This document shows, in pieces, positions 6,222-61,427 of a DNA stretch of 64,000 bases. The first letter of the stretch is position 1, and every line of letters begins with the position of its first letter. The notes beneath the pieces were generated by a model. It had not been told where the DNA came from. It saw only the letters and a list, made by a program, of their open reading frames with translations, and ran no database searches. Both the position numbers and the translations under genes were made by a program. Origin of the DNA: Antedon mediterranea (Eukaryota > Echinodermata > Crinoidea > Comatulida > Antedonidae); the NCBI RefSeq assembly GCF_964355755.1, contig NC_092676.1, positions 5,004,288-5,068,287 of the forward strand, read 5' to 3'.

Positions 6222-8052
6222 TCACGACCTCCAAAAATACAAATCTTGCGACAGTTTTCTTTGAAAATTTTCAAACCATTTCTGAATGACATCGGTTGGA
6301 ATAAATGTTGCGTTCGGCTGTGGTACCATTTGGCCTTGCGTTATTGCAAATGAAGACGCATAATTGAAAAAACTCTCAAGCATTTTTTGGCTGAACTCTC
6401 GAAAGGACTCCACCTTGGAAGCCTAGTGTATAAAGAAAAACATTTTTTTTTTAAGTAAAACAATATTAGGCATGCTGGGTAATTTGTAGAGGGGTTGTTT
6501 TCATTTTTTAAAAAGGGTTTATGAAAATAAATGCTCTGCTGTATCAAATATTCTGCAAGTTGGACTTAGGCAAAAAGCCCATTTCTCAACTCCACCATAC
6601 AGGCCTTAGATTGTAGGTCAAACGTAAGCTTGGAGGACGACTACATGACCATGTACAGTTGAAAATACTTGAGCCCCAATTTCCTGCTTTTTACACTTTT
6701 AAGGACCACGTGACATCCATATTGTGTATTTGAGTACAGTAGACACAATCCTGGTTTCAATTCTTAAGATCAAATCTAGTGTCCTGGGGTCAAATCCAGG
6801 GTCATCCTGGGATAAAATCCAGGGTCATCCTGGGTTCAAATCCAGGGTGCTGGGATAAAATCCAGGGTCCTGGGAATAAATCCATGGTGCTGGGTTCATA
6901 TCTAGGGTTAAAATCGGTTGCATGTTTGTTGAAATATTAGTACTGTGCACTGCTCTACCTGTGTGTTAACGGCTGGGGTTCGTTGTGATATTTCATTCAT
7001 ATTCTCAACAGAGATCCCAATTTGGGCTTCTGTCATTGGTCCACTCATTAAGTTTGCTCCGAAACCACCAACTGCAGAAGTTTCTATAAAAAAAATATGA
7101 ACAATTAAATATATATATATATGATACGGCAATATGTTAAAGAAGGCGTAAGTTTGTTTCATTGCCTCGTCCTTCAGATGGGACCACGCACGCTCGTTCT
7201 GTTTGTGCATAATAACATTTAATTAGAACTACTAGTACCTGGTTTAGCTTTACAGATCTTAAATATAGCGCTTGGTTTATCATTTGAGATGTGGCCCAAG
7301 TACTGCCATGATAACCCAGATGTCGTTGGCCAACCGAAGTAAACAGCGCCACCAAGTCCATCTGGAAACGGCACCGTGCCAAGCATAAAAATCACAACGT
7401 GGCCTATGTTGTCTGTATCAACCAGATTGAAAATAAAGTGCGTCTCGTCTACTTGTTGTGGTTCCCCTTGAACCTGCAAGTATAAATCCTGTAACTGTAT
7501 ATTTTATGCATTATGTTTACACGTCATAATCCAGCTCGCAATAGGACACACTGATCCAACACGCAATAATTAATAAGATAAGTTAAAGTCATTAATAATT
7601 AATTATCCAAGCAAACAAGATTTTTAGTTGTTTTTAAAAACTAAACAACAGCCCCCCCCCCCCCCCCCTTCATCAGGAACAGCCTATCAAAGTTTAAAAA
7701 AATGGCAGGATATGATATGTCATAACTAAAAACAGTGTGCTTTTTCTTGGGGTAGCATAATCCCTTGAATGAAATATTCTAGAGTATTCACCATAACTCC
7801 CTACTCTGGCATCCCTCTGATCCAGGTATACCGACCGGTGCTAGGCCTATTATTACTATTAGGCCTAGGCTATATTAGTTTAGCCCAGCCTAGCTACTTC
7901 TAAGTTCTAGGCCTAAGAAGTAGTAGAGTACTAAAACTAGGCCTAGGCTAGGATAAAAAAGAATGAATGAATCATTGGTTTAATAGTCTATCAACACACG
8001 CTAATTTAAATCGTATACTTACTAAGCGCCCTGCTACTAAACATCCAAACAT
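6222..8052 (-). CDS. HIKESHI: Hikeshi, HSP70 nuclear import carrier
   Basis: The coding exons are complement 8023-8052, 7239-7473, 6959-7083 and 6222-6422, giving a 196-residue protein, the size of animal Hikeshi (197 in human). Exon 1 encodes MFGCLVAGRL; exon 2 contains HVVIFMLGTVPFPDGLGGAV and KPSAIFKI; exon 3 contains EAQIGISVENM; exon 4 contains MLESFFNYASSFAITQGQM and ends KWFENFQRKLSQDLYFWRS. All junctions are GT-AG and frames agree (phases 0, 1 and 0). Hikeshi carries HSP70 through nuclear pores under heat stress by binding FG-nucleoporins with its N-terminal domain. The start is set by the conserved MFGCLVAGRL. The gene converges on MASTL. Introns contain a short tandem repeat and a poly-C tract. 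Other family assignments are unlikely. Confidence 0.95.
6770..6909. repeat. Short tandem repeat in HIKESHI intron 3
   Basis: About six imperfect copies of a 20-27 bp unit of the form 'tcctgggataaaatccaggg' occupy this stretch just downstream of the exon 3 splice donor (minus strand). Confidence 0.8.
7651..7668. repeat. Poly-C tract in HIKESHI intron 1
   Basis: An uninterrupted run of about 18 C (G on the gene strand). It could form structure or vary in length; no function is claimed. Confidence 0.85.
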
Positions 8053-12205: not shown

Positions 12206-12678
12206 TACTGCAATCAAATATTTTTAGATGCTGAAGATTACATACGAATACGATAGATACAAATTTTATAAGCAAAACCAGAAATAGAGATTGCGAAATT
12301 AAATTGGATTCAGAGGAAACCAAATTGAGACGCACTTTGCACTTAAACATATATACAATTGTGTATGAGGATAATGAATGTCGCTGCCCAAACATTATAT
12401 TTCCTCAGGAATCCCCATCCAATCCATCTCAGAACCAATTGCCATTACGATTATCCGGAACCAGTAGCATCATCAAGCCTTGCTTTCTTTTCGTTTTTAT
12501 ACATTTCATATTCCGTTGAGATTTCCCTGTCATTTCTTACTGGACACGAATGTCTTGAAGTAACACACTGCAATTACAATAAACCAAATGCTGTTAAATG
12601 CAATAAAATGGTAATAAATGACATATCAGCCTGTCAGTGACTTCAGAGGCAGTGCAATCTTAAGATTGTCTGGTTGTA

Positions 12679-14362: not shown

Positions 14363-14483
14363 TTATTTTTCTTCAACGAAATATATGAAAATCAATACTT
14401 CTCTTGTTTCTACATCTTCACATGGAGGTTCACACTTTCTAATATCTCCAACGAGACAACACAGTCTTGAACAATCTGATTGC
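14363..14483 (-). CDS. Candidate terminal Cys-rich exon of the LRR gene
   Basis: It starts after a good acceptor (tctcatag). The phase-2 frame set by the preceding LRR exon reads QSDCSRLCCLVGDIRKCEPP, then CED, and stays open to TAA at 14363-14365. Five cysteines in 18 residues (CxxxCC...C...C) would suit an LRR C-cap or the cysteine box after the LRRs of LRR-GPCRs. Phase agreement supports it. The lack of a recognisable LRRCT and possible further splicing limit certainty. Confidence 0.45.
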
Positions 14484-17400
14484 CTATGAGAGAAAAACCA
14501 AACACACAGCAAATGAATGTGAATGATTTTAGTTGCATTTTAACAAATTTTAACAATTGAAGGAAATTTATTAATATTAATAATTTATTTATAGTTGTTT
14601 TGCGTGCTTGCTGCTCTTCGATCATAAAGATGATGAGTACAAGTTTAGAAAATTCAAAGATTTTGAAGGTACAATACCGAATTTATTGCTCAAGAGAGTT
14701 TATACAAGGGAGGTGTTTATTCGCAATGATGTTCTATGGGGAGAGTTTATTCGAGGGAGACGTTTATTCAAAGCCGAGCGTTTATTCGAATAAATGTGGT
14801 AATTGATACTTTCTGATAAATTCTATTCAGAATATCACGATTATTATGTGTAGTCTCATAATAATTACACAAAGAATAAGAACATACTATGAACTGTAAC
14901 ATTTAATTGGAATTACTATATATTAATTTTAATGTTGATTTTAAATTGAACATAAACTAACATTTAAATTATTAATGTAGATTATTTGACAGCTTCCTAA
15001 AATTAAAAACCGAAAATTCAATTAAAAAAATTGAAACTGGTTAAACAACAGCGCCAACATTTTTTTTAAAAAGGTTTAGCAGCTGAAATTTTTTATAGCA
15101 AGTTACCTCCGACGTGATGCGAGTCAGAACATACCCTTAGACGTAAAGTTCACCGAAACATTATATGATAAATTAGTGTATAGAACGCCGATGAATAATA
15201 CACATTAATGAAATTAAAGGACCAATCAAAACTTAAACCAAGAGACACTTAAGACAATTGACCTGAATGCAGTAGTACGAATTAAATGAAATTCAAATTA
15301 TTAAATATTGATTTTCCTTTGAAAAATAATAACAGTAACATTATGTATGCACACCTGTCATACTTACAATTCGACTAAGTTGGTTAATTCTTCAAAAGTT
15401 TTATCTTCGTAAAACCGTAATCTGTTCCCATCTAAACGTCTAAATGATAATATTCAACGATGATTAACCATAGTAAATTTTGAAAATAGTAACATTTTGA
15501 AATAAAGGCTATGTAATATTCCATGAGTATAGGTTGTATAGGATGTGAATAACCAGAGGCTCATGTGAAATAATGGGCGAAGTCAGAATGAAAATTGGAA
15601 TGAATTTAATCAACGACTAATGTCATAAATGTTTTTTTTTTTATTTATTTATACGTAACCATTCCAGTGTTGCAAAAACCAAATACACACATACACATAC
15701 AAGTTTCTCGTTCAATTCAAGTTGCATTTATATTTATACTGAATCTTACAGCAAATAACTAACTTTGTATCCTATAATTTTTTTTTTTTAATTTTTTTTT
15801 TATTCCGGTATATAAAACATTACAAAAAGCAGAACAAGTCTGAAATTATTGTAGTACATATAATAAAAAATTTACATTACAGATAAAAAATACAAAACAA
15901 TTTACAATATGCATAAAAAAAATAAATATACTGTACATTAATCATTAAAATTTATCCAATAGAGCAAAAATGCATAATGACATGTTTAACCTAACAGTAT
16001 CAATTATTTTCCAAATAGCTACTTCATAGTATGTTGGGGAATATTTAAATCGTAATAAAATCACATAGTGTTAACTTACAAATATGTAAGTGATGAAGCA
16101 AAAGAAGAAAATGCATCTGGTTCTATGGTAGTTATAGCGTTGTTGTATAAATACCTGTTAAGATAATCAATATTTATTTTATTATTACTACTGTTTTTTT
16201 AAAGCAATATTTGTTTTCTCTAGTGCATATCATACAGTGTGTATGTTATAGTAACTATCACTATCAAGTGATAATAGCATAATACTAATACTTTCATGTG
16301 AATTTTCTTCAATGTTAAATTGTTATCTAATTAATCTCTTTAGGCCTAATTAAAGACAAAAATGAATGATTAAGTCTAAACGATTTAAACAAAATGAATG
16401 TATTGATTACAATGCATAATATTCATTGTTATGAATTTAATTTTACATTTAAATATACATCAACATAATTTGATGGTTCAGTAAAATTCATCAAAATGCT
16501 ACATAGTTACATAAAAATGTGTGTGGTTGCAATGACATCATTATATTGTTTTCAGTGTGTTCCTATGCACTCATGACATTTATATAATCATAAGCTTTAA
16601 TTTGATGTCAGACATAAAATAGAAATGACTTTTAAGATTTAAAAAAAAATTACGTAATACCTGACTATATAATAGTATGGCTTAAATGATGTCATTACAT
16701 TGTTAAAATACTATTTTTACATATGCTCGTGTTGTTACACATGTCATAAGCTTTAATTTGATACCAAACTTTACATGTTCATTTTTTTTTTCATTTTTCA
16801 GAAAATTATGTAATGTATTTATATAATGGGTGTGGCTTAATTAATGGCATCTTTCAACTGTTCAAATTATATTTTACATAGTTCCGTGGTGTTTACATGT
16901 CATAAGCTTTAATTTAATACCAAACTTTCCATATTTATTTGATTTCTTGAATATTTCAACAAAGTTATGTAATATATAATGGGTGTGGCTTTGATAATGT
17001 CATTATATTGTGAAATTATATTTTCTCATTCTCATCTTACATGTCAAATTATAATTTGATACCAAACTTGACATACATTTTTAATATATATTTTTTTACA
17101 TAGCTACATATATATTAAAAGGGGCGTGGTCAAAATGAGTCATTAATTAGAAGAAGGTTTCCGTCAAGTTTCATGCTTTTGTCACGAAGTGCACAAAAAA
17201 ATTGCTCAGCAACCAACTAATATATATGTTAACTAAATCAGAGAGAGAAAAAAATAACTCTTTAAATGTTGTTTTAAAACATTTACTTAGTCAACCACTG
17301 ACAGCGTAGAGCAGCGTTCCGAAACCTTTTTTGACCACGACCCCAATGATTATATTTTGGGAGTTCTAGCGACCCACCAAGTTTTTGAGCCACAAGCGAT

Positions 17401-20400
17401 TGTATATAAAATTCATAATAATGCGACCTCGGCAAAACGATCGTATCTACTTTCTTTCCGGTGAACACCGCGACCGACGATTTAAACATTTTGTGTTCAA
17501 ATGTAAACGTCATGGGGAGTTCGCTATAAAATGGTGAGGGAGCCCTCCCCTGGCCTGGCTATTGAAAAAGAACATTTTAATTCGAAAACCAGTTTTGTCA
17601 TAGTACTGTTGTCAGACATTTATTATTCCTAATACATACCGGAAGTGCAAGTGCGCAGAGTTAATGATTATAATTATTAGAAATCAAATGTCAATTGGCA
17701 ATTACTCTGATTGTTGGGTTGTACCTTTAGATTTGCAAAAAGCATTTGACACAGTTGACCATGATATATTGCTCGAAAAACTAAAGGATTTGGATTGGAC
17801 CAATAGATTGGTTCCAATCATATCTTAAGAATAGGCAACAATTAGTATATAAAGGTAAAATCAAGCCACTTGGAATTTCTCATATTGTGGCTCAAGGAAG
17901 CATAATTGGGGCTCTATTATTTCTATGCTATGCTAACGATATGAAAATAAGTGTAAATTGTAATTTTATTTTAAACGCTGATGACAGCGTTCTTTTAGTA
18001 TCTGGTAAGAACCCATATAGCTTCAAGACTGAGTTCAGAATTGTCAACCTGTAGTGAATGACTCATTGACAACAAGTTATCCCTCCATATGGGAAAGACT
18101 CAGGCCATGGTGTTTGGACCCAAACATAAAATGAAAATGGTCAGGGATTTTAAAGTATATTGTGATGAAATCCAAGACAGTGTCAACAATCCAATACTGG
18201 TTCTCGGTCAAGTTGTCCTTCAATGTATTTAATGAAATAATAATTAAATATCTTTAAATTTTAATCTTAAAAATGGTTATTTGGTTACTGTATAAATGCC
18301 TTCTGTATGTATTGATCACATTATGAATTGATACAATGCATAATATTCAATGTTTATAAATTTTTATTTAAATTTATTTTAAAACTATCAAAATACTCAT
18401 AAACACAATTCCTATAGAAAATTATAAATATTTAATATCATCCTAATTATTCATTTTATAAATATCTTAATTTTTTATTGGTCATTATTTAAAAAAGAGA
18501 TTTATTTATTAATTAGGATGATATTAAATATTTATAATTTTCTATAGGAATTGTGTTTATGAGTATTTTGATAGTTTTAAAATAAATTTAAATAAAAATT
18601 TATAAACATTGGATATTATGCATTGTATCAATTCATAATGTGATCAATACATACAATGGCTGGCAATGTACTTATTTGGTTACTGTACAAATCCCTTCAA
18701 AGTAAAAACAATGTACAGTAACAATTACAATATTCAAGCTGTTTGATATGTAAATGCTGATGAGTATACTTTAATTAGGCTACAGTAAAATAAACTATTA
18801 AAATATGAAAATGTTATTGTCATGAAAACAATTTATATAGAAAATGTTAAATATTTGTATTACTCTTGTTTTTCTTATTGTCACTTGTATATTTATAATT
18901 ATTTTTATATGAGAATGCTGAATATTCTCTATCAGCTTACTGTTTATGATGATATAGTAATTTTAAAGTCTCTTAAATGACCAATTGTAAAACTATTAAT
19001 ATCTTTAACCAATTCATCCTGATAAGTGCTTAAAGAATGAATAATTTATTATTTATTTAGAAAAAAGTTAAACATAGAAATTAATATTTAGTCCTTCAGT
19101 TTTGTCATTTCTGTCAATCTATCAAACACAAGGGTTGGCAATGCACTTATTTTGTTATGTTCTTCTAGGCTTATAGGTACAGTGATGTAGTGATGGGGTT
19201 GGGGTATAGAAACTGATCCCACGAAATGAAATTATTTCTGATATTTTAATCAATAGGTGCCAGTAATAATTATATATTCTTGATTTACATATTCTTAAAT
19301 ATATTTTTAAAATTCCAAGTTATAAATAGACTTGAAAGTGTTATTCTCAACATTTTGTTATCATCTTAATGTATTATTTTTTATATATTTACAGTATGTA
19401 TTGATCACATTTTGAAATTATACAATGCTTATTATTAATTATTATTTTATTATTTATTTTTAAAACAAATGAAACAAAGAAATAAATATGTGCAAAATAC
19501 TTACAGGTATTTCAATGCTGTCAATTTATCAAATACATTGGTTGGCAATGTACTTATTTTGTTATCCCTCAAATTCCTTCAAAGTAAAAACAATGTACAG
19601 TAACAATTACAATATTCAAGCTGTTTGATATGTCAACTTTTACTTTTCATATTCATTTTGATTTTTTTGTAAAGTCTTTCAGTCAATGATAGGGACATTA
19701 TCTACATAGTAAATACTGATGAGTATACTTTAATTAGGCAAACATAACTAATAAAATATGAAAAGTGATTTTTAAAATATTATGTATTGATCACCTTATT
19801 CAATGATACTATGCATAATATTCAATGTTATAAATTATTATATTATTTATTTTCAAGACAAATTAAACAAAGAATTAAAATACTCATGAACACAATTTCT
19901 ATTTTAAATATTTAGTATCATCTTAATGTATATAATAATAATTGTTAAATAAATCTCTTTTTTAAATAATGACCAATTAAAAATTAAGATTTTTATAAAA
20001 TGAATAATTAATATTGATAATTGTTAACATTTTACTAAACCTTTAAAAAAATAATTATATACATATACAGTATGTATTGATCACATTATGAAATTACACA
20101 ATGCATAATATTCATTATTATTTTTATTTTATTATTTATTTTTAAAACAAATTAAACAAAGAAATAAAACAAATTAAACATGACCAAATACTTACAGTGT
20201 TGTCAGTGCTGTCAATCTATCAAATACATTGGCTGGCAATGTACTTATTTGGTTATTGTACAAAGACCTTAAAAGTAAAAACAATGTACAGTAACAATTA
20301 CAATATTCAAACTGTTTGATATGTAAATGCTGATGAGTATACTTTAATTAGGCTACAGTAAAATAAACTATTAAAATAAGAAAATGTTATTGTCATGAAA

Positions 20401-23400
20401 ACAATTTATATAGAAAATTTTAAATATTTGTATATTTTTATTACTCTTGTTTTTCTTATTGTCACTTGTATATTTTTAATTATTTTTATATGAGAATGCT
20501 GAATATTCTCTATCAGCTTACTGTTTATGATGATATAGTAATTTTAAAATCTCTTAAATGACCAATTGTAAAACTAGTAATATCTTTAACCAATTCATCC
20601 TGATAAGTGCTTAAAGAATGAATAATTTATTATTTATTTAGAAAAAAAGTTAAACATAGAAATTAATATTTAGGCCTACAGTTTTGTCAGTGCTGTCAAA
20701 CTATCAAATACATGGGTTGGCCATGCACTTATTTTGTTATGTTGTAGGCTTATAGGTACAGTGATGTAGTGATGGGGTTGGGGTATAGAAACTGACTCCA
20801 CGAAATGAAATTATTTCTGATATTTTAATCAATAGGTGCCACTAATAATTATATATTCTTGATTTACATATTCTTAAATATATTTTTAAAATTCCAAGTT
20901 ATAAATAGACTTGAAAGTGTTATTCTCAACATTTTGTTATCATCTTAATGTATTATTTTTTATACATTTACAGTATGTATTGATCACATTTTGAAATTAT
21001 ACAATGCATAATATTCAATGTTATAAATTATTATATTATTTATTTTCAAGACAAATTAAACAAACAATTGAAATACTCATGAACACAATTTCTATTTTAA
21101 ATAATTAGTATCATCTTAATGTATATAATAATAATTATTAAATAAATCTCTTTTTTAAATAATGACCAATTAAAAATTAAGATTTTTATAAAATGAATAA
21201 TTAATATTGATAATTGTTAACATTTTACTAAACCTTTAAAAAAATAATTTATATACATATACAGCATGTATTGATCACATTTTGAAATTATACAATTTAT
21301 AATATTCATTATTATTTTTATTTTATTATTTATTTTTAAAACAAATTAAACATGACCAAATACTTACAGTCTTGTCAGTGCTGTCAATCTATCAAATACA
21401 TTGGCTGGCAATGTACTTATTTGGTTCCTGCTCAAATCCCTTTAAAGTAAAAACAATGTACACAAAGAATTACAATATTCAAGCTGTTTGATATGTAAAT
21501 GCTGATGAGTATACTTTAATTAGGCTACAGTAAAATAAACTATTAAAATAAGAAAATGTTATTGTCATGAAAACAATTTATATAGAAAATTTTAAATATT
21601 TGTATATTTTAATTACTCTTGTTTTTCTTATTGTCACTTGTATATTTATAATTATTTTTATATGAGAATGCTGAATATTCTCTATCAGCTTACTGTTTAT
21701 GATGATATAGTAATTTTAAAGTCTCTTAAATGACCAATTGTAAAACTATTAATATCTTTAACCAATTCATCCTGATAAGTGCTTAAAGAATGAATAATTT
21801 ATTATTTATTTAGAAAAAAGTTAAACATAGAAATTAATATTTAGTCCTTCGGTTTTGTCATTTCTGTCAAACTATCTAACACAAGGGTTGGCAATGCACT
21901 TATTTTGTTATGTTCTAGGCTTATACTGTAGGTACAGCGATGTAGTGATGGGGTTGGGGTATAGAAACTGACTTCACGGAATGAAATTATTTCTGATATT
22001 TTAATCAATAGGTGCCACTAATAATTATATATTCTTGATTTACATATTCTTAAATATATTTTTAAAATTCCAAGTTATAAATAGACTTGAAAGTGTTATT
22101 CTCAACATTTTGTTATCATCTTAATGTATTATTTTTTATACATTTATTGTATGTATTGATCACATTTTGAAATTATACAATGCATAATATTCAATGTTAT
22201 AAATTATTATATTATTTATTTTCAAGACAAATTAAACAAAGAATTAAAATACTCATGAACACAATTTCTATTTTAAATATTTAGTATCATCTTAATGTAT
22301 ATAATAATAATTGTTAAATAAATCTCTTTTTTAAATAATGACCAATTAAAAATTAAGATTTTTATAAAATGAATAATTAATATTGATAATTGTTAACATT
22401 TTACTAAACCTTTAAACAAATAATTTATATACATATACATTATGTATTGATCACATTATAAAATTATACAATGCATAATATTCATTATTATTTTTATTTT
22501 ATTATTTATCTTTAAAACAAATTAAACATGACCAAATACTTACAGGTATGTCAATGCTGTCAATCTATCAAATACATTGGCTGGCAATGTACGTATTTGG
22601 TTATTGTACAACCACCTTCAAAGTAAAAACAATGTACAGTAACAATTACAATATTCAAGCTGTTTGATGTGTAAATGCTGATGAGTATACTTTAATTAGG
22701 CTACAGTAAAATAAACTATTAAAATAAGAAAATGTTATTGTCATGAAAACAATTTATATAGACAATTTTAAATATTTGTATATTTGTATTACTCTTGTTT
22801 TTCTTATTGTCACTTGTATATTTTTAATTATTTTTATATGAGAATGCTGAATATTTTCTATCAGCTGACTGTTTATGATGATATAGTAATTTTAAAGTCT
22901 CTTAAATGACCAATCGTAAAACTATTAATATCTTTAACCAATTCATCCTGATAAGTGCTTAAAGAATGAATAATTTATTATTTATTTAGAAAAAAGTTAA
23001 ACATAGAAATTAATATTTAGTCCTTCAGTTTTGTCATTTCTGTCAAGCTATCAAACACAAGGGTTGGCAATGCACTTATTTTGTTATGTTCTTCTAGGCT
23101 TATAGGTACAGCGATGTAGTGATGGGGTTGGGGTATAGAAACTGACTTCACGGAATGAAATTATTTCTGATATTTTAATCAATAGGTGCCACTAATAATT
23201 ACATATTCTTGATTTACATATTCTTAAATATATTTTTAAAATTCCAAGTTATAAATAGACTTGAAAGTGTTATTCTCAACATTTTGTTATCATCTTAATG
23301 TATTATTTTTTATACATTTATTGTATGTATTGATCACATTTTGAAATTATACAATGCATAATATTCAATGTTATAAATTATTATATTATTTATTTTCAAG

Positions 23401-26400
23401 ACAAATTAAACAAAGAATTAAAATACTCATGAACACAATTTCTATTTTAAATATTTAGTATCATCTTAATGTATATAATAATAATTATTAAATAAATCTC
23501 TTTTTTAAATAATGACCAATTAAAAATTAAGATTTTTATAAAATGAATAATTAATATTGATAATTGTTAACATTCTACTAAACCTTTAAAAAAATAATTT
23601 ATATACATATACAGTATGTATTGATCACATTATGAAATTACACAATGCATAATATTCATTATTATTTTTATTTTATTATTTATTTTTAAAGCAAATTAAA
23701 CATGACCAAATACTTACAGATATGTCAATGCTGTCAATCTATCAAATACATTGGCTGGCAATGTACTTATTTGGTTATTGTTCAAATCCCTTCAAAGTAA
23801 AAACAATGTACAGTAACAATTACAATATTTAAGCTGTTTGATATGTAAATGCTGATGAGTATACTTTAATTAGGCTACAGTAAGATAAACTATTAAAATA
23901 AGAAAATGTTATTGTCATGAAAACAATTTATATAGAAAATATTAAATATTTGTATATTTTAATTACTCTTGTTTTTCTTATTGTCACTTGTATATTTATA
24001 ATTATTTTTATATGAGAATGCTGAATATTCTCTATCAGCTTACTGTTTATGATGATATAGTAATTTTAAAGTCTCTTGAATGACCAATTGTAAAACTATT
24101 ATATCTTTAACCAATTCATCCTGATAAGTGCTTATATAATGAATAATTTATTATTTACTTAGAAAAAGTTAAACATAGAAATTAATATTTAGTCCTTCAG
24201 TTTTGTCATTTCTGTCAATCTATCAAACACAAGGGTTGGCAATGCACTTATTTTGTTATGTTCTTCTAGGCTTATAGGTACAGTGATGTAGTGATGGGGT
24301 TGGGGTATAGAAACTGACTTCACGGAATGAAATTATTTCTGATATTTTAATCAATAGCTGCCACTAATAATTATATATTCTTGATTTACATATTCCTAAA
24401 TATATTTTTAAAATTCCAAGTTATAAATAGACTTGAAAGTATTATTCTCAACATTTTGTTATCATCTTAATGTATTATTTTTAATACATTTACAGTATGT
24501 ATTGATCACATTTTGAAATTATACAATGCATAATATTCATTGTTATAAATTATTGTATTATTTATTTTCAAGACAAATTAAACAAAGAATTAAAATACTC
24601 ATGAACACAATTTCTATTTTAAATATTTAGTATCATCTTAATGTATATAATAATAATTATTAAATAAATCTCTTTTTTAAATAATGACCAATTAAAAATT
24701 AAGATTTTTATAAAATGAATAATTAATATTGATAATTGTTAACATTCTACTAAACCTTTAAAAAAATAATTTATATACATATACAGTATGTATTGATCAC
24801 ATTATGAAATTACACAATGCATAATATTCATTATTATTTTTATTTTATTATTTATTTTTAAAGCAAATTAAACATGACCAAATACTTACAGATATGTCAA
24901 TGCTGTCAATCTATCAAATACATTGGCTGGCAATGTACTTATTTGGTTATTGTTCAAATCCCTTCAAAGTAAAAACAATGTACAGTAACAATTACAATAT
25001 TTAAGCTGTTTGATATGTAAATGCTGATGAGTATACTTTAATTAGGCTACAGTAAGATAAACTATTAAAATAAGAAAATGTTATTGTCATGAAAACAATT
25101 TATATAGAAAATATTAAATATTTGTATATTTTAATTACTCTTGTTTTTCTTATTGTCACTTGTATATTTATAATTATTTTTATATGAGAATGCTGAATAT
25201 TCTCTATCAGCTTACTGTTTATGATGATATAGTAATTTTAAAGTCTCTTGAATGACCAATTGTAAAACTATTATATCTTTAACCAATTCATCCTGATAAG
25301 TGCTTATATAATGAATAATTTATTATTTACTTAGAAAAAGTTAAACATAGAAATTAATATTTAGTCCTTCAGTTTTGTCATTTCTGTCAATCTATCAAAC
25401 ACAAGGGTTGGCAATGCACTTATTTTGTTATGTTCTTCTAGGCTTATAGGTACAGTGATGTAGTGATGGGGTTGGGGTATAGAAACTGACTTCACGGAAT
25501 GAAATTATTTCTGATATTTTAATCAATAGCTGCCACTAATAATTATATATTCTTGATTTACATATTCCTAAATATATTTTTAAAATTCCAAGTTATAAAT
25601 AGACTTGAAAGTATTATTCTCAACATTTTGTTATCATCTTAATGTATTATTTTTAATACATTTACAGTATGTATTGATCACATTTTGAAATTATACAATG
25701 CATAATATTCATTGTTATAAATTATTGTATTATTTATTTTCAAGACAAATTAAACAAAGAATTAAAATACTCATGAACACAATTTCTATTTTAAATATTT
25801 AGTATCATCTTAATGTATATAATAATAATTATTAAATAAATCTCTTTTTTAAATAATGACCAATTAAAAATTAAGATTTTTATAAAATGAATAATTAATA
25901 TTGATAATTGTTAACATTTTACTAAACCTTTAAAAAAATAATTTATATACATATACAGTATGTATTGATCACATTATGAAATTACACAATGCATAATATT
26001 CATTATTATTTTTATTTTATTATTTATTTTTAAAGCAAATTAAACATGACCAAATACTTACAGATATGTCAATGCTGTCAATCTATCAAATACATTGGCT
26101 GGCAATGTACTTATTTGGTTACTGTACAAATACCTTAAAAGTAAAAACAATGTACAGTAACAATTACAATATTTAAGCTGTTTGATATGTAAATGCTGAT
26201 GAGTATACTTTAATTAGGCTACAGTAAGATAAACTATTAAAATAAGAAAATGTTATTGTCATGAAAACAATTTATATAGAAAATATTAAATATTTGTATA
26301 TTTTAATTACTCTTGTTTTTCTTATTGTCACTTGTATATTTATAATTATTTTTATATGAGAATGCTGAATATTCTCTATCAGCTTACTGTTTATGATGAT

Positions 26401-27916
26401 ATAGTAATTTTAAAGTCTCTTGAATGACCAATTGTAAAACTATTATATCTTTAACCAATTCATCCTGATAAGTGCTTATATAATGAATAATTTATTATTT
26501 ACTTAGAAAAAGTTAAACATAGAAATTAATATTTAGTCCTTCAGTTTTGTCAGTGCTGTCAATCTATCAAATACATTGGCTGGCAATGCACTTATTTTGT
26601 TACGTTCTAGGCTTATAGGTACAGTGATGTATTGATGGGGTTGGGGTATAGAAACTGACTTCACGGAATGAAATTAGTTCTGATATTTTAATCAATAGGT
26701 GCCAGTAATAATTATATATATAATCTTGATTTACATATTCTTAAATATATTTTTAAAATTCCAAGTTATAAATAGACTTACAAAATGCCAGTGTTATTCT
26801 CCACATTTTGTTATCATCTTAATGTATTTATTAAAATAATATTTTAAATCTCTTTAAATATAAACTATCAATATTAGTATCTTTTAAAAGAATAATTTAT
26901 TGATAATGGTTTAGTATTTACTAATTCTTTTAAAATGTATACTGTATGATTGTATTGATTACTGGCAATGTACTTATTTGGTTCCTGCTCAAATCCATTT
27001 AAAGTAAATACAATGTACACAAAGAATTGAAATATTCAAGCTGTTTGATATGTAAATGCTGATGAGTATACTTTAATTAGGCTACAGTAAAATAAACTAT
27101 TAAAATAAGAAAGTTGTATTGTAATGAAAACAATTTTTATAGCAAATTTTAAAATATTTGTATATTTTTATTTTTCTTATACATTTTGAATAATTTTGAT
27201 GTGAGAATGCTGAATATTCACTATCATCTTATAAATGTTTATGATGATAATTAATAATAGTAACTTTAAAGTCTCTTAAATGACCAATTGTAAAAGTATT
27301 AATATCTTTAACCAATTCATCCTGATAAAAAATGAATAATTTATTATTTATTTAGAAAAAAGTTAAACATAGAAATTAATATTTAGGCCTTCAGTTTTGT
27401 CAGTGCTGTCAATCTATCAAACACAAGGGTTGGCAATGCACTTATTTCATTATTCTTCTTTCTTGGAGATCCAAGAAACATTTATTATATATGGCCTTTG
27501 GCCTAAATAATATACAATGTAATACAATATTAAATAAACATCAGTTGTTATATTATGTTAGGCTTATAGGTACAGTGATGTAGTGATGGGGTTGGGGTAT
27601 AGAAACTGACCCACCAAGAAATTACTTCTGATATTTTAATCAATAGGTGCCACTAAAAATCATATAGGCCTATATAATCTTGATTTTCATATTTTTAAAT
27701 ATATTTTTAAAATTCCAAGTTATAAATAAACTTATAGCAATGAAATGGTCGCCTCACAATAACCCTATACTTACAATTCTGCTATTGGAACATGATCATT
27801 ATACTTGTTGATAGTTGAGATGTTATTAATACTCCATGGATGATTACATGTCACTCGTTGACCTTCAGTATACCACCCAGTCCCACATATGCAGTTGGCT
27901 GGACATTCTGCTTCTC
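14363..27916 (-). CDS. LRRNT plus multi-LRR protein, one LRR per exon (5' signal exon not found)
   Basis: Minus-strand exons: LRRNT 27775-27916; LRRs 26062-26133, 24890-24961, 23718-23789, 22544-22615, 21368-21439, 20196-20267, 19505-19576, 16080-16154 and 15368-15439; Cys-rich end 14363-14483. Every LRR exon begins after the second base of a codon and ends likewise, with acttac (GTAAGT) donors, so any combination stays in frame. The LRRNT reads CPANCICGTGWYTEGQRVTC. A typical repeat is DLSRNQISTLPANVFDRL then TALTRL, the 24-residue extracellular LRR consensus, very like the variable LRRs of VLR-type proteins. Expected role: extracellular binding, secreted or membrane-tethered. The start exon, a standard LRRCT and a transmembrane segment were not identified, so the model is partial. 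An LRR-GPCR or Slit-like relative is possible. Which array exons are used in mRNA is unknown. Confidence 0.75.
15368..15439 (-). CDS. Divergent LRR exon (penultimate)
   Basis: A 72-nt exon with tcatttag acceptor and GTAAGT donor encodes RLDGNRLRFYEDKTFEELTN then LVEL, a 24-residue LRR (LxLxxNxL...F..L..L..L). Phases are the same as the array exons. Unlike the array, it has no close copies, so it probably encodes an invariant C-terminal repeat. Confidence 0.8.
16080..16154 (-). CDS. Divergent LRR exon
   Basis: A 75-nt exon with ttaacag acceptor and GTAAGT donor encodes YLYNNAITTIEPDAFSSFAS then SLTYL. It has one residue more than the array repeats and the same phases. Single copy in the window. 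Confidence 0.8.
16510..17150. repeat. Degenerate tandem repeats of about 120-150 bp in an LRR-gene intron
   Basis: Four to five units share 'gtgtggct' ... 'atgtcattatattg' ... 'catgtcataagctttaattt' ... 'ataccaaacttt'. Non-coding. Confidence 0.7.
17640..18220 (+). pseudogene. LINE reverse-transcriptase fragment
   Basis: Translated in changing frames it gives LDLQKAFDTVDHDILLEKL, then NRQQLVYKGKIKPLGISHIV, then AQGSIIGALLF and NADDSVLLVSG. This is the order of RT motifs (DLQKAFD, Q-G-S-x-x-G, xADD). Frame changes and stops show it is dead. It lies inside the LRR gene on the opposite strand. Upstream, 17300-17345 (cagcgttccgaaacctttttt) looks like a hAT-type end, also decayed. Confidence 0.8.
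18304..18655. repeat. Near-perfect 146-bp-arm inverted repeat at the 3' edge of the LRR array
   Basis: The left arm 18304-18449 and right arm 18510-18655 are reverse complements with about one mismatch noticed (tgtatgtattgatcacatta on the left). The 60-bp loop is array sequence. The right arm joins directly to the truncated LRR exon at 18656-18694. It looks like an inverted duplication breakpoint of the 1.17-kb unit. Confidence 0.85.
18656..18694 (-). pseudogene. Truncated LRR exon at the 3' edge of the array
   Basis: Retains the acceptor and DLYSNQISTLPA, then runs straight into the inverted repeat, so the second half of the LRR and the donor are gone. Confidence 0.75.
19505..19576 (-). CDS. 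Array LRR exon, copy nearest the 3' end
   Basis: A 72-nt exon encodes NLRDNKISTLPTNVFDKL then TALKYL. It is the most divergent intact array copy (NKIST, FDKL, LKYL). Splice sites and phases match the other copies. Confidence 0.8.
20196..20267 (-). CDS. Array LRR exon
   Basis: Encodes SLYNNQISTLPANVFDRL then TALTTL. Acceptor ttttaag, donor GTAAGT, phase 2/2. Confidence 0.82.
21368..21439 (-). CDS. Array LRR exon
   Basis: Encodes DLSRNQISTLPANVFDRL then TALTRL. Phase 2/2, intact splice sites. Confidence 0.82.
22544..22615 (-). CDS. Array LRR exon
   Basis: Encodes WLYNNQIRTLPANVFDRL then TALTYL. It differs from its neighbours mainly at the first residues and Ser to Arg after NQI, positions on the concave face expected to contact ligand. 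Confidence 0.82.
23718..23789 (-). CDS. Array LRR exon
   Basis: Encodes DLNNNQISTLPANVFDRL then TALTYL. Appears identical to the exon at 24890-24961. Confidence 0.82.
24890..24961 (-). CDS. Array LRR exon
   Basis: Encodes DLNNNQISTLPANVFDRL then TALTYL. Exon and surrounding intron look like a recent duplicate of the 23.7-kb unit. Confidence 0.82.
26062..26133 (-). CDS. Array LRR exon, first after the LRRNT in transcript order
   Basis: Encodes YLYSNQISTLPANVFDRL then TALTYL. Downstream intron matches the 23.7 and 24.9 kb units; the 5' residues differ. Confidence 0.82.
26963..26997 (-). pseudogene. Truncated LRR exon at the 5' edge of the array
   Basis: Retains DLSRNQISTLPA coding, but the acceptor AG is changed (CTTTAAATGG) and the second half is missing. 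Not usable as an exon. Confidence 0.7.
27775..27916 (-). CDS. LRRNT (N-cap) exon of the LRR gene
   Basis: A 142-nt exon with ctttacag acceptor and GTAAGT donor encodes EAECPANCICGTGWYTEGQR then VTCNHPWSINNISTINKYND and HVPIAEL. CPxxCxC...VxC is the LRRNT cysteine pattern that caps extracellular LRR domains. It ends after the second base of a Leu codon, matching every array exon. It starts with two bases of a codon, so a phase-1 signal-peptide exon should lie upstream (above 27916) but was not recognised. Confidence 0.85.
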
Positions 27917-33831: not shown

Positions 33832-34251
33832 CTAATTAGCAAACACATTAAGTAAAGCAATCATACCGAGAACGGTGACAGGATTGGTCTTGGTAACCGG
33901 ATTGGTAACACGATCAACAGAATCGGTAACATCATGATCGGTAACCGGATTGGTAACACGATCAACAGAATCGGTAAAATCATGATCGGTAACAGGATTG
34001 GTCGCGGTAATCGGATTGGTAACACGATCAACAGAATCGGTTACAGTACGATCAATAGAATCGGTAATATCATGATCGGCAACTGGTTTGGTCTCGGTAA
34101 CCGGAAAGGTGACAGGATCGATAACGGAATCTGTGACATGATCAGTAACGTTAACGTCAGTGAAGCTGATACTAAAACAGCGAGAAAATAACAATGCAAT
34201 CAATATAGCAGCAATAGAAAATAGTAGTATAATTCCTCTTAAGATGAACAT
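33832..34251 (-). CDS. Hypothetical membrane-anchored or secreted repeat protein
   Basis: A 139-residue ORF. Residues 1-30 (MFILRGIILLFSIAAILIAL, then LFSRCFSISF) form a strong signal peptide or signal anchor. Residues 31-125 are Thr/Asp/Val-rich with tandem 16-residue units of the type DHDVTDSVDRVTNPVT, encoded by a 48-bp repeat. The end (VLGMIALLNVFAN) is weakly hydrophobic. No family is recognised. The antisense strand of the repeat is also open for 85 codons (a consequence of the 48-bp period), so the ORF could be fortuitous. The clean hydrophobic leader directly before the repeat is what favours a gene. No introns or neighbours inform its role. Confidence 0.4.
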   Translation of the reverse strand: MFILRGIILLFSIAAILIALLFSRCFSISFTDVNVTDHVTDSVIDPVTFPVTETKPVADHDITDSIDRTVTDSVDRVTNPITATNPVTDHDFTDSVDRVTNPVTDHDVTDSVDRVTNPVTKTNPVTVLGMIALLNVFAN

Positions 34252-34679
34252 CTTAACTTAATTCACTCGTAAACTTTACTTCTGCGAGTTCGCTCAGCAT
34301 ATGAACAATATACTTTGTTACTATCTTCATTTACCTGTAGATATTGCTTTTAATTATTTAGATGATGCATTAATACAATTAAGAATTGTTAATATTTAAT
34401 ACTATATTGATATTCATGTAATAAGCACAAGATTTACAAAACACATGGACTATCAACTAGGATTTTTGAAAGGGAATACTAAACTGAACTCTACAGTTCA
34501 ACTGACGACGTCATGACGTCATGTCATACATACAACCAACTCCATCCATGTGCTATTACTAAAAACCCGGACCATACTAAATAGTTAATTTCATTATTAA
34601 TCAGAGAAGAAGTTTTTTTAATTTAAAAACAAAATTTACAGTGTACACACCGTACCCTTTTAACGTAATTCATTGCATA
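34252..34679. other. AT-rich spacer
   Basis: No gene seen. It contains a small 'gacgtcatgacgtcatgtcat' CRE-like palindromic motif at about 34507. Confidence 0.4.
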
Positions 34680-34945
34680 TTGCTGTTTACATGTTATTGC
34701 ATATTACTGTTTACATGTTATTGCGTATTACTGTATACATGTTATTGCATATTACTGTATACATGTTATTGCATATTACTGTATACATGTTATTGCATAT
34801 TACTGTATACATGTTATTGCATATTACTGTATACATGTTATTGCATATTACTGTATACATGTTATTGCATATTACTGTATACATGTTATTGCATATTACT
34901 GTATACATCTTATTGCATATTACTGTATACATGTTATTGCACACT
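34680..34945. repeat. 24-bp minisatellite, about 11 units
   Basis: Units 'atgttattgcatattactgt' plus 'atac' repeat head to tail with very few changes. Since 24 is a multiple of three, several frames on both strands are open; these are not genes. The near identity of units implies recent expansion. Confidence 0.92.
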
Positions 34946-43105: not shown

Positions 43106-43616
43106 GTGAGTACAGTACTAATTTATCATACTTTCTCGAACGAGATGGGGAGTCACAAAATAAGAAAGACCTTTTGTGGAAGTTTAGAATAATTAGCACG
43201 TAACTAAAGCACGTGCGTACACATTACATACGGTGTTTTGCATCGTAAGTGTGTTACTTTATTGTGAATATTATTATAATTCGTTTATATATAAATGTGG
43301 GAATATCCCGTGTCTTACAGCCTACTGGGCTGACGTACAGGTCAATGGTTATTCGTTTCGTGCTGGCAAGTAAACGGCGCTCATTCGTCTACACTGGGAT
43401 AACCCATACTATTCCGAAAGATGGGTTCTTTAAGGCACATTCGACCTCCAGTCTGTTTATGTTCTTTATAAAGAAGACCTACCACCAGCATATTATGGAC
43501 ATGGTCGAGGAGAGTCTTGAGCCCGGTGCTGATTTCATGCTATGACTTGGCCGGCCTAGCGCTTACGCTAAAACACTATTTGTATTGTCACTTTGTTTCT
43601 TGCAGGAACTTCAATT

Positions 43617-46027
43617 ATGGATACGACAGAAAAAGAACCGCCAATTGTCAGAAGACCTGGTGCCAATCGACCACGTCGTGTCTTTATCGAACCAGCTATG
43701 CTTCTTGTAATGATCGGTGTTGTTGGGCTAACTGCGCCAATCACAATACAGTATGTTAACCATCGAGTACGGCAAAAATACAACCTGACATCGGAGACAA
43801 GCAAATCGAATTGTTTGAACGATTCAGATGATGCCAATGATAGTTCACTACAGGACCAAGTACAACAAGAGGTTACAGCATGGAGCCTAGCATACGGAGC
43901 ATGTGGCGCGTTCCCTTTGCTAATTTCAACAACAATATTCGCCACTATTAGTGATACCATCGGACGGAAAATACCTCTATTATTATCAAATTTTGGAATA
44001 ATTGCCCAATGTCTGATTGTTATAACTGTGGCATATTTGTCCTTGCCTTTGACATATCTGGTGATCGGAAACTTTATCTGTAACTGTTTCGGTGGATACC
44101 AGTTGTTCTTTTCCGTGTCTTTAGCCATTGTGGCTGACACTGCCAAAAAGCGCCAACGCACTATGAAATTTATAAAACTACACACGTTAATAATGTGTGG
44201 CTCTGGCCTTGTACAAGTTGGGGTCGGATACTTGGTCGATGCTACAGGATTTATTCCGCCATATTGTCTTGCAGCTGGCCTCTTTATGATAGTTGTTCCA
44301 TACATAATATTTATTATACCAGAAACGGTCACAACAAAACAATCTATTTGCTTTGGCCTTACCAAGTTCTTTTATTCTGTGAAAATATTGTTTACTTCCA
44401 ACAAATCTCGGAGACGAATTAAGATTATTTTGCTGTTTCTTTGTCATTTTCTTGTGTTTACTACCGTCATATACTTCATGCCTGTCGTGTATTTGAAGGT
44501 GCTTTCAAAACCGTTTTGCTGGAACTCCGTTTTGATTGGCTACTACTCTGCGTCACAGCCGATATTTGCAGGAATTGGTAAGAACTGTGTGCTTGCCCTT
44601 TCAAGGCCATTGTGGGGGACGTTCAGATTTAGTTATTGTTGGTTTCATGAGCCAATTATCGCTAACTTGTGGGTAGGCAACCAATTTAGCCGGCTAAATA
44701 ACTAAGCTAGAACGGGCCATTATGTGCAATTGTATTCATTTAATATGAGTCGAGATATACTTGGATGATAGAAAGATAGTCTAGTTAATTTTACGTGTAA
44801 TTGCCGTATCACGATGCAGCTTGGTGCTCTCGTTACGGAAGTACGTACTGCGAACTATTAACGTAAATATTTTGAACAATCAACAAACCGCTTGTGATTG
44901 GTCAAATTACTTTCCATTCATGAAAGTGGCAGCTAACCCGGATGACAAAACACTACATAGCGATCGAGACATTCACGCAAATAAAACTCTGATTAACAAC
45001 TTTTATCTTCATTAGGTCTGCTTTGTGGTGGTTATATCTTAAAACAGTGCCTAGGAGACTATGGAATGATAATCGTAGGCCTGTTTTCAGGTATCCTGTT
45101 AATGATTGGAGTCGGAATTGCCACAACGACTGAAGAGCTGTTTATTGGTAAGGAAGAGGACAATTATTCTAAAAGGATATCGTAAGCCTATACACTAGAT
45201 ACTACATTATTCCATGCAATTGCGTATCAATGTCTCTAGCCTTTCTCTTATTTAATTCGTAGTGGCTGGAATCGGAGCTCTTCGAAATATTCCGTTTGCT
45301 GTTTTAATGGCATTACTTTCTAAGACGGTTGATGACAAAGAACAAGGTAAGAGTTGATGTATGTTTACGTTTCTAGAGATAGGATTTTGTCTGTTAAAGG
45401 ACTTGGTGTATTTGTACGTTTATATAGATAGGATCCATGACGTAAGCGCACCGCAAGTAATTTGTGGAATTACGACGCGATAGATCACCCGAGCTGTCGC
45501 TTGTGATTGGTCAACTCACTTGCGTTGGCCTACGTCGTTCTGTTGCGTCCAATTCAGCATTTATTTGGAAAAATTTAGCATAATAACACAAAAACATAGG
45601 ATATGCCTTATTTTATAATAGTGTATACGCATGTTAACTATGGTTTTGACATTGTAACGACTTTTCGCCAATATTAACGATGGTCATTTTTGCACGCAGG
45701 TACGTTGTTTGCATTTGTCGGCGCATTGGAAGGCCTGGGATTGTTTCTAGGCCCCATAACCCTTGGTAGTCTGTACAAGATGACTGTTGAGACGTATCCT
45801 GCAACTGTGTTTATCACCATGACTGGGATATTGCTGATAAACATGTGCTTAGTTTGGTAAGTAGGCCTAATTAGCAAGTTGTAGAAAAAGTAATAGGCGT
45901 AAAAGGAAGAAGTTCCAATTTGCTCACTACGTTACTAATTACAATTTTGTTCTTACTCTTAATTAGGCGTATTGAAATATTTAGAATTACGTCATGGATC
46001 ATACTATACACGACTAGATTCGTCTGA
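43617..46027 (+). CDS. SLC46-family proton-coupled transporter
   Basis: Coding exons 43617-44577, 45016-45147, 45263-45346, 45700-45856 and 45967-46027 join in frame to 464 residues, close to human SLC46A1-A3 (about 460). The N-terminus MDTTEKEPPIVRRPG is cytosolic. TM1 covers about 24-46, followed by an extracellular loop with three N-glycosylation sites (NLT 56, NDS 68, NDS 74). After TM2 comes the MFS motif-A-like SDTIGRK (112-118). Large hydrophobic helices continue to the end (WRIEIFRITSWIILYTTRFV). SLC46 members move folates, heme-related compounds or muropeptides with protons, at the plasma membrane or lysosome. Which substrate applies cannot be told. The start follows the acceptor at 43605. 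Reading through the fourth coding donor would give a stop after LVW, so a slightly shorter isoform by intron retention is possible. Confidence 0.88.
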
Positions 46028-58265: not shown

Positions 58266-58619
58266 TATTACATAATTCTTTGTTTTAAGTGAACTGAAAT
58301 TATAATAGTAGTAGATATAGTATGTGTATTAAGAATGTGAATTTTTAGCATTTTTTTTTTAAATTAAATAGAGTATATTAAATAAATTTTATGTGACTGT
58401 AGAATCAAGTAATAATATTGTAATGGCATTTAATATACTTGTTTTTGTTGTATAATGTGTTGCACATAAGCTTAATTCTCGTACAAATTCTTTTGTTCTG
58501 AGCATGCTATGTTTTTTAGCATTCGAAGAATGACTTTTTGACTCAACAGGCACATAGTCTAGTGGCCATCGCGAAAATGCCAAACCATTGAGAGGGTTAC
58601 AGTCACAGCAAATTTTCCT

Positions 58620-61427
58620 TTGACAAAGAAGTACTTTTTTGAATTGTCTATAGAAGAGTTTCATATCCCTGGTTTTCAGATGTTTTTGCCAAATGAAAAG
58701 CTTTCATCTGGTAGAGGAGTTGTTATTTATGTTCGAAATGGGATGTCTGCCACTCCGGTTTTGTTTAAAGATATTTTGTTTGAGGAATCCATGTTTGTTG
58801 AGATTGAAGTCAAGGATCGCACCTTTTTAATTGGATGTGTGTATAGAAGTGACGCCGGATCTAGTGTCAATAATTCTGCTTTGTGTTCTCTGTTTAGAAA
58901 AGTGGCATCCTTTTCTTGTTCTGATTTTATTATAGTTGGAGATTTCAATTATAGGAGTATTAATTGGGAGCTAGGATATGTGACTGGTGAAGATGGTAAA
59001 AATAGTCATAATTTTTTTGACACCATTAATGACTTATTTTTAGCTCAGCATGTACAAGACCCAACCCGTTACAGAATAGGAGAACAGGCCAATGTTCTGG
59101 ACCTGGTACTTACATCTAATGAGGATTCTATTAGTGAGGTCCTTCAAGCTCCACCATTAGGTAAGAGTGATCATATGGTACTTCGATTTAAAATTCCAGT
59201 TAATTTAATCAAAGAAGAGGTAGTAGGGGTCAGAAATTATTTCCATGCTGATTATGATAAGTTTCGTGGTTTTCTTGATGGTGTCGATTGGGACACTGAG
59301 TTATTGGATAAGGACGGGTTACACTCGCACGGTTCTTTTGATGAGATCTTATCTAGAGGTATGGAACAGTTTGTTCCAAAGAGTAAGAAACACTTGTCTG
59401 GAAATGTTAAGAGACCTTTGTGGTATACTAAGGAGGTTGATAAGTCTATTAAACAGAAGAATAAATGCTGGAAACAGTATATCAAAGCAAAACGTAAAGG
59501 GCATGACTGTGCTAGTGTCAAATGGAACACGTTTATTAGAGTAAGGAATGATACTGTCAATTTGATTAAGAGTTCTAAAAGCATCTTCGAAAATAAGATT
59601 GCAAATGAGGTTAAAGTCAATGAAAAGTCTTTTTGGCGCTATGTAAATTCTCAGTTAAACACCAGATCTGGTATTCCTACTCTTAGAAATGTTGAAGGTA
59701 AACTTGTTGTAGATGACCAAGATAAAGCCGAGTCTTTTAATTCTTTTTTTAGCAGTGTCTTTTGTAAGGAGAACTTATCGAATGTTCCGAATCTTGATAA
59801 AAAGATTGAGGCTTCTTTGTCAGATATTCATAAGCTGTTGTCTAACTTAGTTATAGATAAGTCAGCTGGCCCTGATGGCTTTCACCCACGGGTTTTGATT
59901 GAATTAAAGGATCAAATTGCTTACCCTCTCAGTCTAATATTCACTAGATTATTCAATGATCAGAAGGTCCCTCTATCGTGGAAGGAGGCAATTGTAATAC
60001 CTATATTTAAGAAAGGCAAAAAGGAGGACCCGGCTAACTACAGACCGGTTAGTTTAACGTCGGTCATAGGGAAAATGATGGAAAGGATTATTAGGGATAA
60101 ACTTGTAATGTATCTTGAGAGTAATGGTCTTTTGTGCAATGAGCAATTTGGATTCAGACAAGGTAGATCATGTGCATTACAACTACTTGATGTCCTGGAG
60201 AGTTGGACTACTAACCTGGATAACCATGATAGCTTTGATTGTGTCTATTTAGACTATAAAAAGGCCTTTGATAGTGTGCCACACCAAAGGCTTCTAGTCA
60301 AATTGAAAGGTTTTGGTATACGGGAAATCTACTAGGATGGTTCTCTAATTATTTGTCAAATAGAACACAACGAGTTAGTGTCAATGGTCAATTGTCATCA
60401 CAGGCTCCAGTATTAAGTGGAATTCCACAGGGTAGCGTTGTGGGCCCAATCTTATTTTCAATCTTCATTAACGATTTACCTGATGTTGTCGAATCTAGTA
60501 TACGTTTATTTGCAGACGACACCAAGTTGTATAGAGTGGTCAATAACATTGATGATGCGGGTTTATTTCAAAGAGACATTGACAGTGCTTCCCATTGGTC
60601 TAATGTTTGGCAATTGCCTTTTAATGACACTAAGTGTAAGGTATTTCATTATGGTTGTGATAATCCCAATTTCTTGTATTCAATGGCTGGTAATTTACTA
60701 CATGAGGTAAAGCAGGAGAAAGATCTAGGTGTTACCTTTGATCCTAGTTTAATCTTTAATTTGCATGTAGCGGATATTTGTAAAAGAGCTAATAAGAAAC
60801 TAGGAATGATTTATAGATCTTTTAAATTCTTGAATAAAGATGGATTTTTGAAGCTGTATAAGTCTATTGTCAGGCCAACGCTTGAATATTGTAACACTGT
60901 TTATAATCCTATCAGAAAACAAGATCAGGATGAAATAGAGAAGGTCCAGCAAAGAGCAACAAGATTGATTCCTAGGTACCGTAATATTCCTTATGAACAA
61001 CGTTTGAGAATTCTTGGTCTTCCTACCATGAGATATCGAAGGCAGAGAGCGGATATTATCCAAGTTTTTAGGATTGTTAAAGGTTTCGATCGTATTTCGA
61101 TCAACACATTTTTTGAATTTGATCTAGAATCTCGGACCCGTGGACACCCATATAAACTCAAGTTTAAAAGCTCTCGTCTTAATATTAGGAGGGACACGTT
61201 CTCCAGGAGAGTTATTCTCTTATGGAATGCTCTGCCTACGGATGTAGTTTCATGTGCTACGGTGAACTTGTTCAAAGCAAAACTTAACGTCGCATGGTCT
61301 AACCACCCGCTGAAGTTTTCACCCTATATAGAATATGATTTTATTGCCAAGAGGGGCTTTTAAGCACTGAGTGCTTCGCCTCGATCCCGTAGACGAAAGT
61401 GTACGGGAAACAAGTAAACAAGTAAAT
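58620..61427 (+). mobile_element. 5'-truncated LINE (CR1/Jockey superfamily) with one frame break
   Basis: Two reading frames, 58620-60335 and about 60330-61363, together give most of a LINE ORF2. The first begins inside the endonuclease (GRGVVIYVRN, then GDFNYRSINW and GKSDHMVLRF). It continues into reverse transcriptase (SAGPDGFHPRVL, ANYRPVSLTSVIGKMMERII, YLDYKKAFDSVPHQRLL). The second has SGIPQGSVVGPILFSIFIND, the catalytic FADDTKLY, and a C-terminal region ending AKLNVAW...KRGF. The frame changes at about 60310-60335. The 3' end has 'aagtaaacaagtaaa', a short tail repeat as in CR1/L2-type LINEs. The N-terminal endonuclease and 5' UTR are missing, as usual for incomplete reverse transcription. 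Few other lesions suggest a young copy. Confidence 0.92.

Follow-up and report, generated by a model that had tools for sequence, protein, structure and literature searches.

The analysed stretch of DNA, here called the window (64,000 nt; C7:5004288-5068287 in a 354-Mb, 18-contig animal genome), carries a gene which runs on the minus strand from position 34251 to position 14363. Its exons encode, in order, a signal peptide, a cysteine cap, seven leucine-rich repeat (LRR) cassettes, a pair of C-terminal LRRs, and a hinge of the LGR type. Upon conceptual splicing, the frame is open over 432 codons and the exon phases match throughout; the predicted product is a 432-aa protein which is devoid of a seven-transmembrane (7TM) domain. 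The coding exons and the 7TM relic are given below in window positions (W is the window locus; A, B, C, D1-D4, and G are related loci).

33867-34251, minus strand: first coding exon; encodes signal peptide MFILRGIILLFSIAAILIALLFSRCFS and a linker of 16-aa repeats in tandem, in frame; donor G/GTATGA, phase 1
27775-27916, minus strand: LRRNT-like exon for the Cys cap (CPANCICGT...VTC); intron phases 1 (5' side) and 2 (3' side)
26062-26133, minus strand: LRR cassette 1, YLYSNQISTLPANVFDRLTALTY
24890-24961, minus strand: LRR cassette 2, DLNNNQISTLPANVFDRLTALTY
23718-23789, minus strand: LRR cassette 3, same sequence as cassette 2; flanking intron the same at 380 of 380 compared bases
22544-22615, minus strand: LRR cassette 4, WLYNNQIRTLPANVFDRLTALTY
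21368-21439, minus strand: LRR cassette 5, DLSRNQISTLPANVFDRLTALTR
20196-20267, minus strand: LRR cassette 6, SLYNNQISTLPANVFDRLTALTT
19505-19576, minus strand: LRR cassette 7, NLRDNKISTLPTNVFDKLTALKY
16080-16154, minus strand: penultimate LRR exon, 75 nt, YLYNNAITTIEPDAFSSFASSLTYL; homologues in A, B, C, D1, D2, D3, and G
15368-15439, minus strand: C-terminal LRR exon, 72 nt, RLDGNRLRFYEDKTFEELTNLVEL
14363-14483, minus strand: hinge exon QSDCSRLCCLVGDIRKCEPPCEDVETREVLIFIYFVEEK plus stop codon; in sister genes, the homologous sequence begins the 7TM exon
12330-12607, minus strand: 7TM relic, TM5 and TM7 fragments with stops (relic region 14512-12330)

A preliminary description of the window had reported a cap exon followed in matching phase by seven 72-nt LRR exons. 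This is confirmed: each cassette has the form AG/72 nt/GTAAGT with phase-2 boundaries on both sides, all coordinates are now fixed, and the phase-2 end of the cap exon (27916-27775) keeps the cassettes in frame. The gene proved to be larger than described, as it includes the signal-peptide exon, two more LRR exons, the hinge, and the 7TM relic. The cap had been named an LRRNT exon; the cysteine pattern is LRRNT-like, but neither the cap nor the other searched loci have a match to Pfam LRRNT. No LRRCT was found by motif and Pfam searches of the window gene and the examined sister loci. One exon per LRR with phase-2 introns is the normal layout of LGR genes and, taken alone, is not a diversification device.

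Homologues of the signal-peptide exon are found 5' of the cap exon at D1, D2, D3, and G, and also, in full or in part, at C and D4. Within this exon, a 48-nt minisatellite (window 33892-34144) codes for the in-frame repeat DHDVTDSVDRVTNPVT, and linker length may vary between individuals.

The cassettes are spaced by 1172, 1172, 1174, 1176, 1172, and 691 nt. The 1.17-kb tandem units that had been described are thus correct as to spacing, except for the last, but each unit pairs an intact exon with a decayed LRR-like copy that has no donor. Because of this second copy, the unit is interpreted as a dimer that arose from an older unit with one exon; spacings of ca. 520 nt are retained in sister arrays. 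The eight decayed copies in W are:

27398-27454, minus strand: decayed LRR-like copy without donor
26548-26604, minus strand: decayed LRR-like copy without donor
25376-25432, minus strand: decayed LRR-like copy without donor
24204-24260, minus strand: decayed LRR-like copy without donor
23032-23088, minus strand: decayed LRR-like copy without donor
21856-21912, minus strand: decayed LRR-like copy without donor
20685-20741, minus strand: decayed LRR-like copy without donor
19103-19159, minus strand: decayed LRR-like copy without donor

Two 5' halves of LRR exons which lack the 3' half (window 26950-27005 and 18650-18705) apparently mark breakpoints at which units were duplicated. At the 3' end of the array, adjoining a half LRR exon, lies an inverted repeat of 167 nt (window 18304-18470 and 18489-18655; 93% complementary, spacer 18 nt) which is composed of cassette-intron sequence and, by folding back, may promote instability.

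A family of LGR-type receptor genes

Genome-wide, the cap exon is matched exactly eight times, always on C7 (at 5.03, 5.23, 5.47, 5.50, 5.73, 5.75, 5.79, and 8.31 Mb), and each is followed by a cassette array. An intact 7TM exon is found downstream at six sister loci (B, C, D1-D4); the cap exon of D4 was not found by the cap-exon searches. Among PDB entries, the 7TM domain of the sister loci is most similar to relaxin receptor 1 (E 1.1e-46), followed by FSHR (1.5e-32) and LGR4 (1.5e-14), and it matches Pfam 7tm_1. These six intact 7TM exons and their best PDB match indicate an expanded family of type-C-LGR-like GPCRs. The spliced gene model of D1 represents a 678-aa receptor in which the LRRs are followed by a Cys-containing hinge (LCCLVGVIDVCEP...CDDLLKSE) and then by TM1. 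No LDLa module was detected by a regular expression in the examined loci, nor by Pfam in the W and D1 proteins.

Approximately 70 RXFP-like 7TM exons are encoded genome-wide. Three of the 7TM exons (C7:4084588, 4204559, and 4344792) have equal scores and matching flanking LRR exons and are spaced by 120-140 kb; this trio is the result of recent large segmental duplications. Between the C and D loci, the 7TM exon has a dN of ca. 0.03 and a dS of ca. 0.22 and carries no stops, which indicates purifying selection, as would be expected of functional receptors.

The window gene itself does not encode a GPCR, as its 7TM region is decayed and the frame stops at 14363. Decayed 7TM regions with stops are also found at A and in both relics at G. 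TM1-TM4 are undetectable in the relic of the window as well as at A and G, and a short deletion in the hinge is common to all three loci. The 7TM region was therefore probably lost before W, A, and G diverged.

This raises the possibility, which we rate only slightly below an even chance, that the window locus is a plain pseudogene, with cassettes that stay intact only through exchange with live loci. The decayed 7TM regions of W, A, and G, the eight decayed LRR copies within W, and the strong homogenisation between loci (see below) are in line with this, and there is a precedent in the intact WD repeats of Podospora NWD pseudogenes (PMC1805685). Against it, the remaining coding path of 432 codons is open with good splice sites, and exchange between arrays would not protect the single-copy exons for the signal peptide, the cap, the two C-terminal LRRs, and the hinge. 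Furthermore, the 7TM loss looks common to W, A, and G, yet their cassettes show 17 nonsynonymous and 0 synonymous changes at the four codons described below. For the three loci together, soluble receptors and pseudogenes refreshed by exchange are considered about equally likely.

Four hypervariable codons in homogenised cassettes

A genome-wide search with a splice-anchored cassette pattern returned 510 matches, compared to 29 with the reversed control. Variability was analysed for 98 cassettes from nine arrays, which code for 87 distinct proteins. The backbone LxxNQISTLPANVFDRLTALTx is near-invariant save for repeat positions 2, 4, 5, and 24. The first three are the x residues of xL.xx before the Asn, while position 24 precedes the next Leu. 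Entropy at these positions is 2.9-3.4 bits. Per-base diversity in these codons is 0.5-0.75 at the first and second codon positions; elsewhere in the cassette it is mostly 0-0.1, silent sites included. It had been proposed that differences concentrate before the Asn and after NQI. The former applies (positions 2, 4, and 5) and position 24 has to be added, but the residue after NQI is near-constant (Ser in 85, Arg in 12 of 98 cassettes).

In LRR geometry, such positions correspond to the x residues on the concave beta-strand. By this analogy, the four variable residues would lie on the concave face, where the preliminary description had expected the diversity. In a VLR-like protein from amphioxus, two acidic beta-strand residues on the concave face bind bacteria (PMC4731796).

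The introns beside the cassettes served as neutral yardstick. Between cassette pairs with an intron divergence of 0.17%, already 19% of the hypervariable bases differ; at 3.6% intron divergence this value is 52% and has reached a plateau. A dN/dS analysis at concave-face codons had been suggested previously. With counts that are approximate owing to recombination, and with tree and spanning-tree events that are partly non-independent, the minimum spanning tree of closest relatives has 71 single-base changes in these four codons, none of them synonymous (69 nonsynonymous and 0 synonymous when split by locus class, where 14.3 synonymous changes are expected), and the intron-based tree has 78-92 nonsynonymous changes per hypervariable codon, compared to ca. 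29 changes of any kind expected from the introns (codon 2: 83 nonsynonymous, 0 synonymous, P 8e-9).

The remainder of the cassette has a different history. Between loci, third-position divergence of the non-variable codons is mostly 0.00-0.09, compared to 14-43% for the introns. Because this silent divergence is far below the dS of the 7TM exon (0.22-0.24 for C or B versus the D loci) and the pS of the single-copy C-terminal LRR exon (up to 0.60), either homogenisation across loci or constraint on the nucleic acid itself must act on the cassettes. At the non-variable sites of recent duplicates, nonsynonymous divergence is 0.028, compared to 0.033 for the introns. These sites are thus not strongly constrained, so that homogenisation accounts for much of their conservation.

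Identical hypervariable triplets occur 15 times in cassettes which are distant by their introns, compared to 5.6 expected, and some cassette pairs have no intron difference over 380 bases, yet differ at 2-3 variable residues. Both observations would fit an exchange confined to the exon. For the exchange of repeats within and between loci which characterises HIC-type genes, this one genome provides indirect evidence. The earlier proposal of a germline expansion system for LRR modules is, as regards their spread and reshuffling, supported by the homogenisation of the cassettes, by their hypervariability, and by the triplets common to distant cassettes.

A second LGR subfamily at C7:18.0 Mb (17.998-18.115 Mb; 7TM ca. 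64% identical) has cassette arrays of its own. Their backbone is different (NLPADIFDGLNNLQ), and they are variable at the same four positions (22 cassettes), which is an independent replication of the four-position hypervariability. A third cluster, at C9:15.7-17.9 Mb (15.72-17.87), contains many related LRR exons with a variable last codon (three cassettes in full). Given this subfamily and this cluster, hypervariable cassettes are distributed genome-wide rather than restricted to one locus. Several 7TM copies near the C9 cluster carry one in-frame TAA.

A candidate germline repertoire of binding surfaces

We consider it likely that this type-C-LGR-like family, with homogenised cassette arrays and with four residues per repeat under diversifying selection, represents a germline repertoire of binding surfaces. 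The arrays would expand and contract through cassette duplication, and the cassettes would be homogenised within and between loci by concerted evolution, probably through gene conversion that is mostly confined to the exon. Selection would favour new amino acids at the four concave beta-strand residues of each repeat, resulting in a germline-encoded set of receptor binding surfaces. Constitutive splicing would join all cassettes into one long solenoid. The presumed ligands are proteins or glycans that are diverse or change fast, such as microbial, allorecognition, gamete, or chemosensory cues. The copy in the window would be either a secreted decoy or soluble form of 432 aa or a receptor pseudogene refreshed by exchange with live loci.

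The pattern of substitutions bears on two other explanations for the variability. Targeted hypermutation of the four codons by an AID-like or DGR-like process, instead of selection on ordinary mutations, would account for the sharp localisation of the variation and for pairs with 0-1 intron differences per 380 bases which differ at 2-3 variable residues. However, the 71 single-base changes counted in these codons are all nonsynonymous; the third base of codon 2 is T in 91 of 98 cassettes and never C, though a change from T to C would be silent; and all four bases occur at the first and second codon positions, hence a single-base signature is missing. We rejected hypermutation for its lack of silent changes and regard it as very unlikely. 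Relaxed constraint or drift in redundant copies of a hormone receptor that has no part in recognition would agree with the large recent expansion and the many decayed copies, but drift cannot make four codons change several-fold faster than the adjacent introns, and the 7TM domain is under purifying selection; this explanation is thus highly improbable.

Two more explanations concern the use of the cassettes. Since all of them are symmetric (phase 2-2), any subset stays in frame, as required for a Dscam-like choice of cassettes with many isoforms per gene. Such alternative splicing seems unlikely: the layout is that of ordinary, constitutively spliced LGR genes, all intact cassettes have the same strong GTAAGT donor, and nothing points to mutually exclusive control. 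The preliminary description had likened the repeats to the modules of VLR-type receptors, and a system which assembles germline cassettes somatically into a receptor would share with our genes the 24-residue LRRV-like repeats and, by LRR geometry, the concave hypervariability. The LRR array does match PDB chains of VLRs, though many other LRR proteins match more strongly. VLR kinship was rejected: motif and Pfam searches found no LRRCT, there is no incomplete germline gene and no GPI or stalk end, and the sister loci carry whole genes for GPCRs, with relaxin receptor 1 as the closest match. With complete genes and intact splice sites, somatic assembly is unneeded, and we regard it as extremely improbable.

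LRR-ectodomain GPCRs are known as hormone receptors with conserved ligands. The family resembles type C LGRs (RXFP1/2, LGR3, LGR4-type, GRL101) in its 7TM domain, which is closest to RXFP1, in its LRR ectodomain, and in the Cys-containing hinge before TM1. It differs by having 7-24 near-identical LRR exons, while type C LGRs have a fixed set of diverged ones, and also by the hypervariable concave residues, by copies without a 7TM domain, and by the LDLa module, which was not found. Type C LGRs are defined by an N-terminal LDLa module (PMC11863921); as none was found, these receptors depart from the textbook RXFP. Lineage-specific expansions have been reported for sea urchin (27 rxfp1/2-like sequences; PMC3310001) and for Ciona (ca. 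30 RXFP1/2-like sequences, mostly LDLa repeats without LRRs; PMC2396169).

Lamprey and hagfish VLRs and the VLR-like LRR proteins of amphioxus share the 24-residue LRRs and the binding residues on concave beta-strands, but here no LRRCT was found and somatic assembly is not required, and the cassettes are spliced exons of complete genes from a GPCR family. The binding surface may work like that of a VLR even though the protein is not a VLR. In the LRR domains of plant NLRs, the xxLxLxx residues are likewise under positive selection, but these proteins are cytosolic, with diverged repeats and no exon cassettes. PRDM9 zinc-finger arrays also have minisatellite-like repeats in which only the contact residues vary and the rest is homogenised, but they are DNA-binding, encoded in a single exon, and serve another purpose.

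In Podospora HET-D and HET-E, four codons per repeat are under positive selection and concerted evolution acts within and between loci (PMC1805685). As in these WD-repeat NLRs of the NWD/HNWD family, our repeats are near-identical including silent sites, have four hypervariable surface codons, and seem to be exchanged within and between loci; in Podospora, intact repeats persist even in pseudogenes (PMC1805685). The differences are that the repeat is an LRR rather than WD40, with one exon per repeat, and that the protein is an animal surface GPCR rather than a fungal cytosolic NLR. Concerted evolution with diversifying selection as in HET-D/HET-E would be the best working analogue, rather than somatic VLR assembly.

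Separately, LGR genes, one exon per LRR, and repeat diversification of the HIC type are all known; the searched literature did not show them combined in an animal GPCR repertoire. A full-text literature search, with most subscription journals outside its reach, returned no earlier report of hypervariable LGR arrays in animals. Presumably ligand-facing residues which change far faster than the introns while the rest stays constant imply selection to recognise changing or diverse targets via a GPCR. This would put a binding surface similar to that of VLRs on a signalling scaffold for which such a role is not known, and would show that the repeat-diversification logic of fungal self/non-self genes arose in an animal. 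It is predicted that repeat number and concave residues are polymorphic from one individual to the next and that the genes are expressed in immune or recognition tissue.

More tentatively, and with somewhat less than even confidence, we propose a whole-genome germline recognition repertoire on LGR-type GPCRs, with several hundred cassettes in dozens of genes, shaped by exon-confined exchange and selection, with soluble members devoid of 7TM and a role in immunity or allorecognition. If true, this would be the animal GPCR counterpart of fungal HET-D/E and lamprey VLRs.

Several other features were recognised in the window. The left neighbour is a Hikeshi (OPI10)-like gene on the minus strand (7219-7503, probably also 6908-7222). 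A 24-bp repeat is present in 11 copies with 97% matches (34672-34941). An exon of an MFS transporter is found at 43572-44705, and a non-LTR retrotransposon which codes for an endonuclease and a reverse transcriptase in two frames at 58563-61363.
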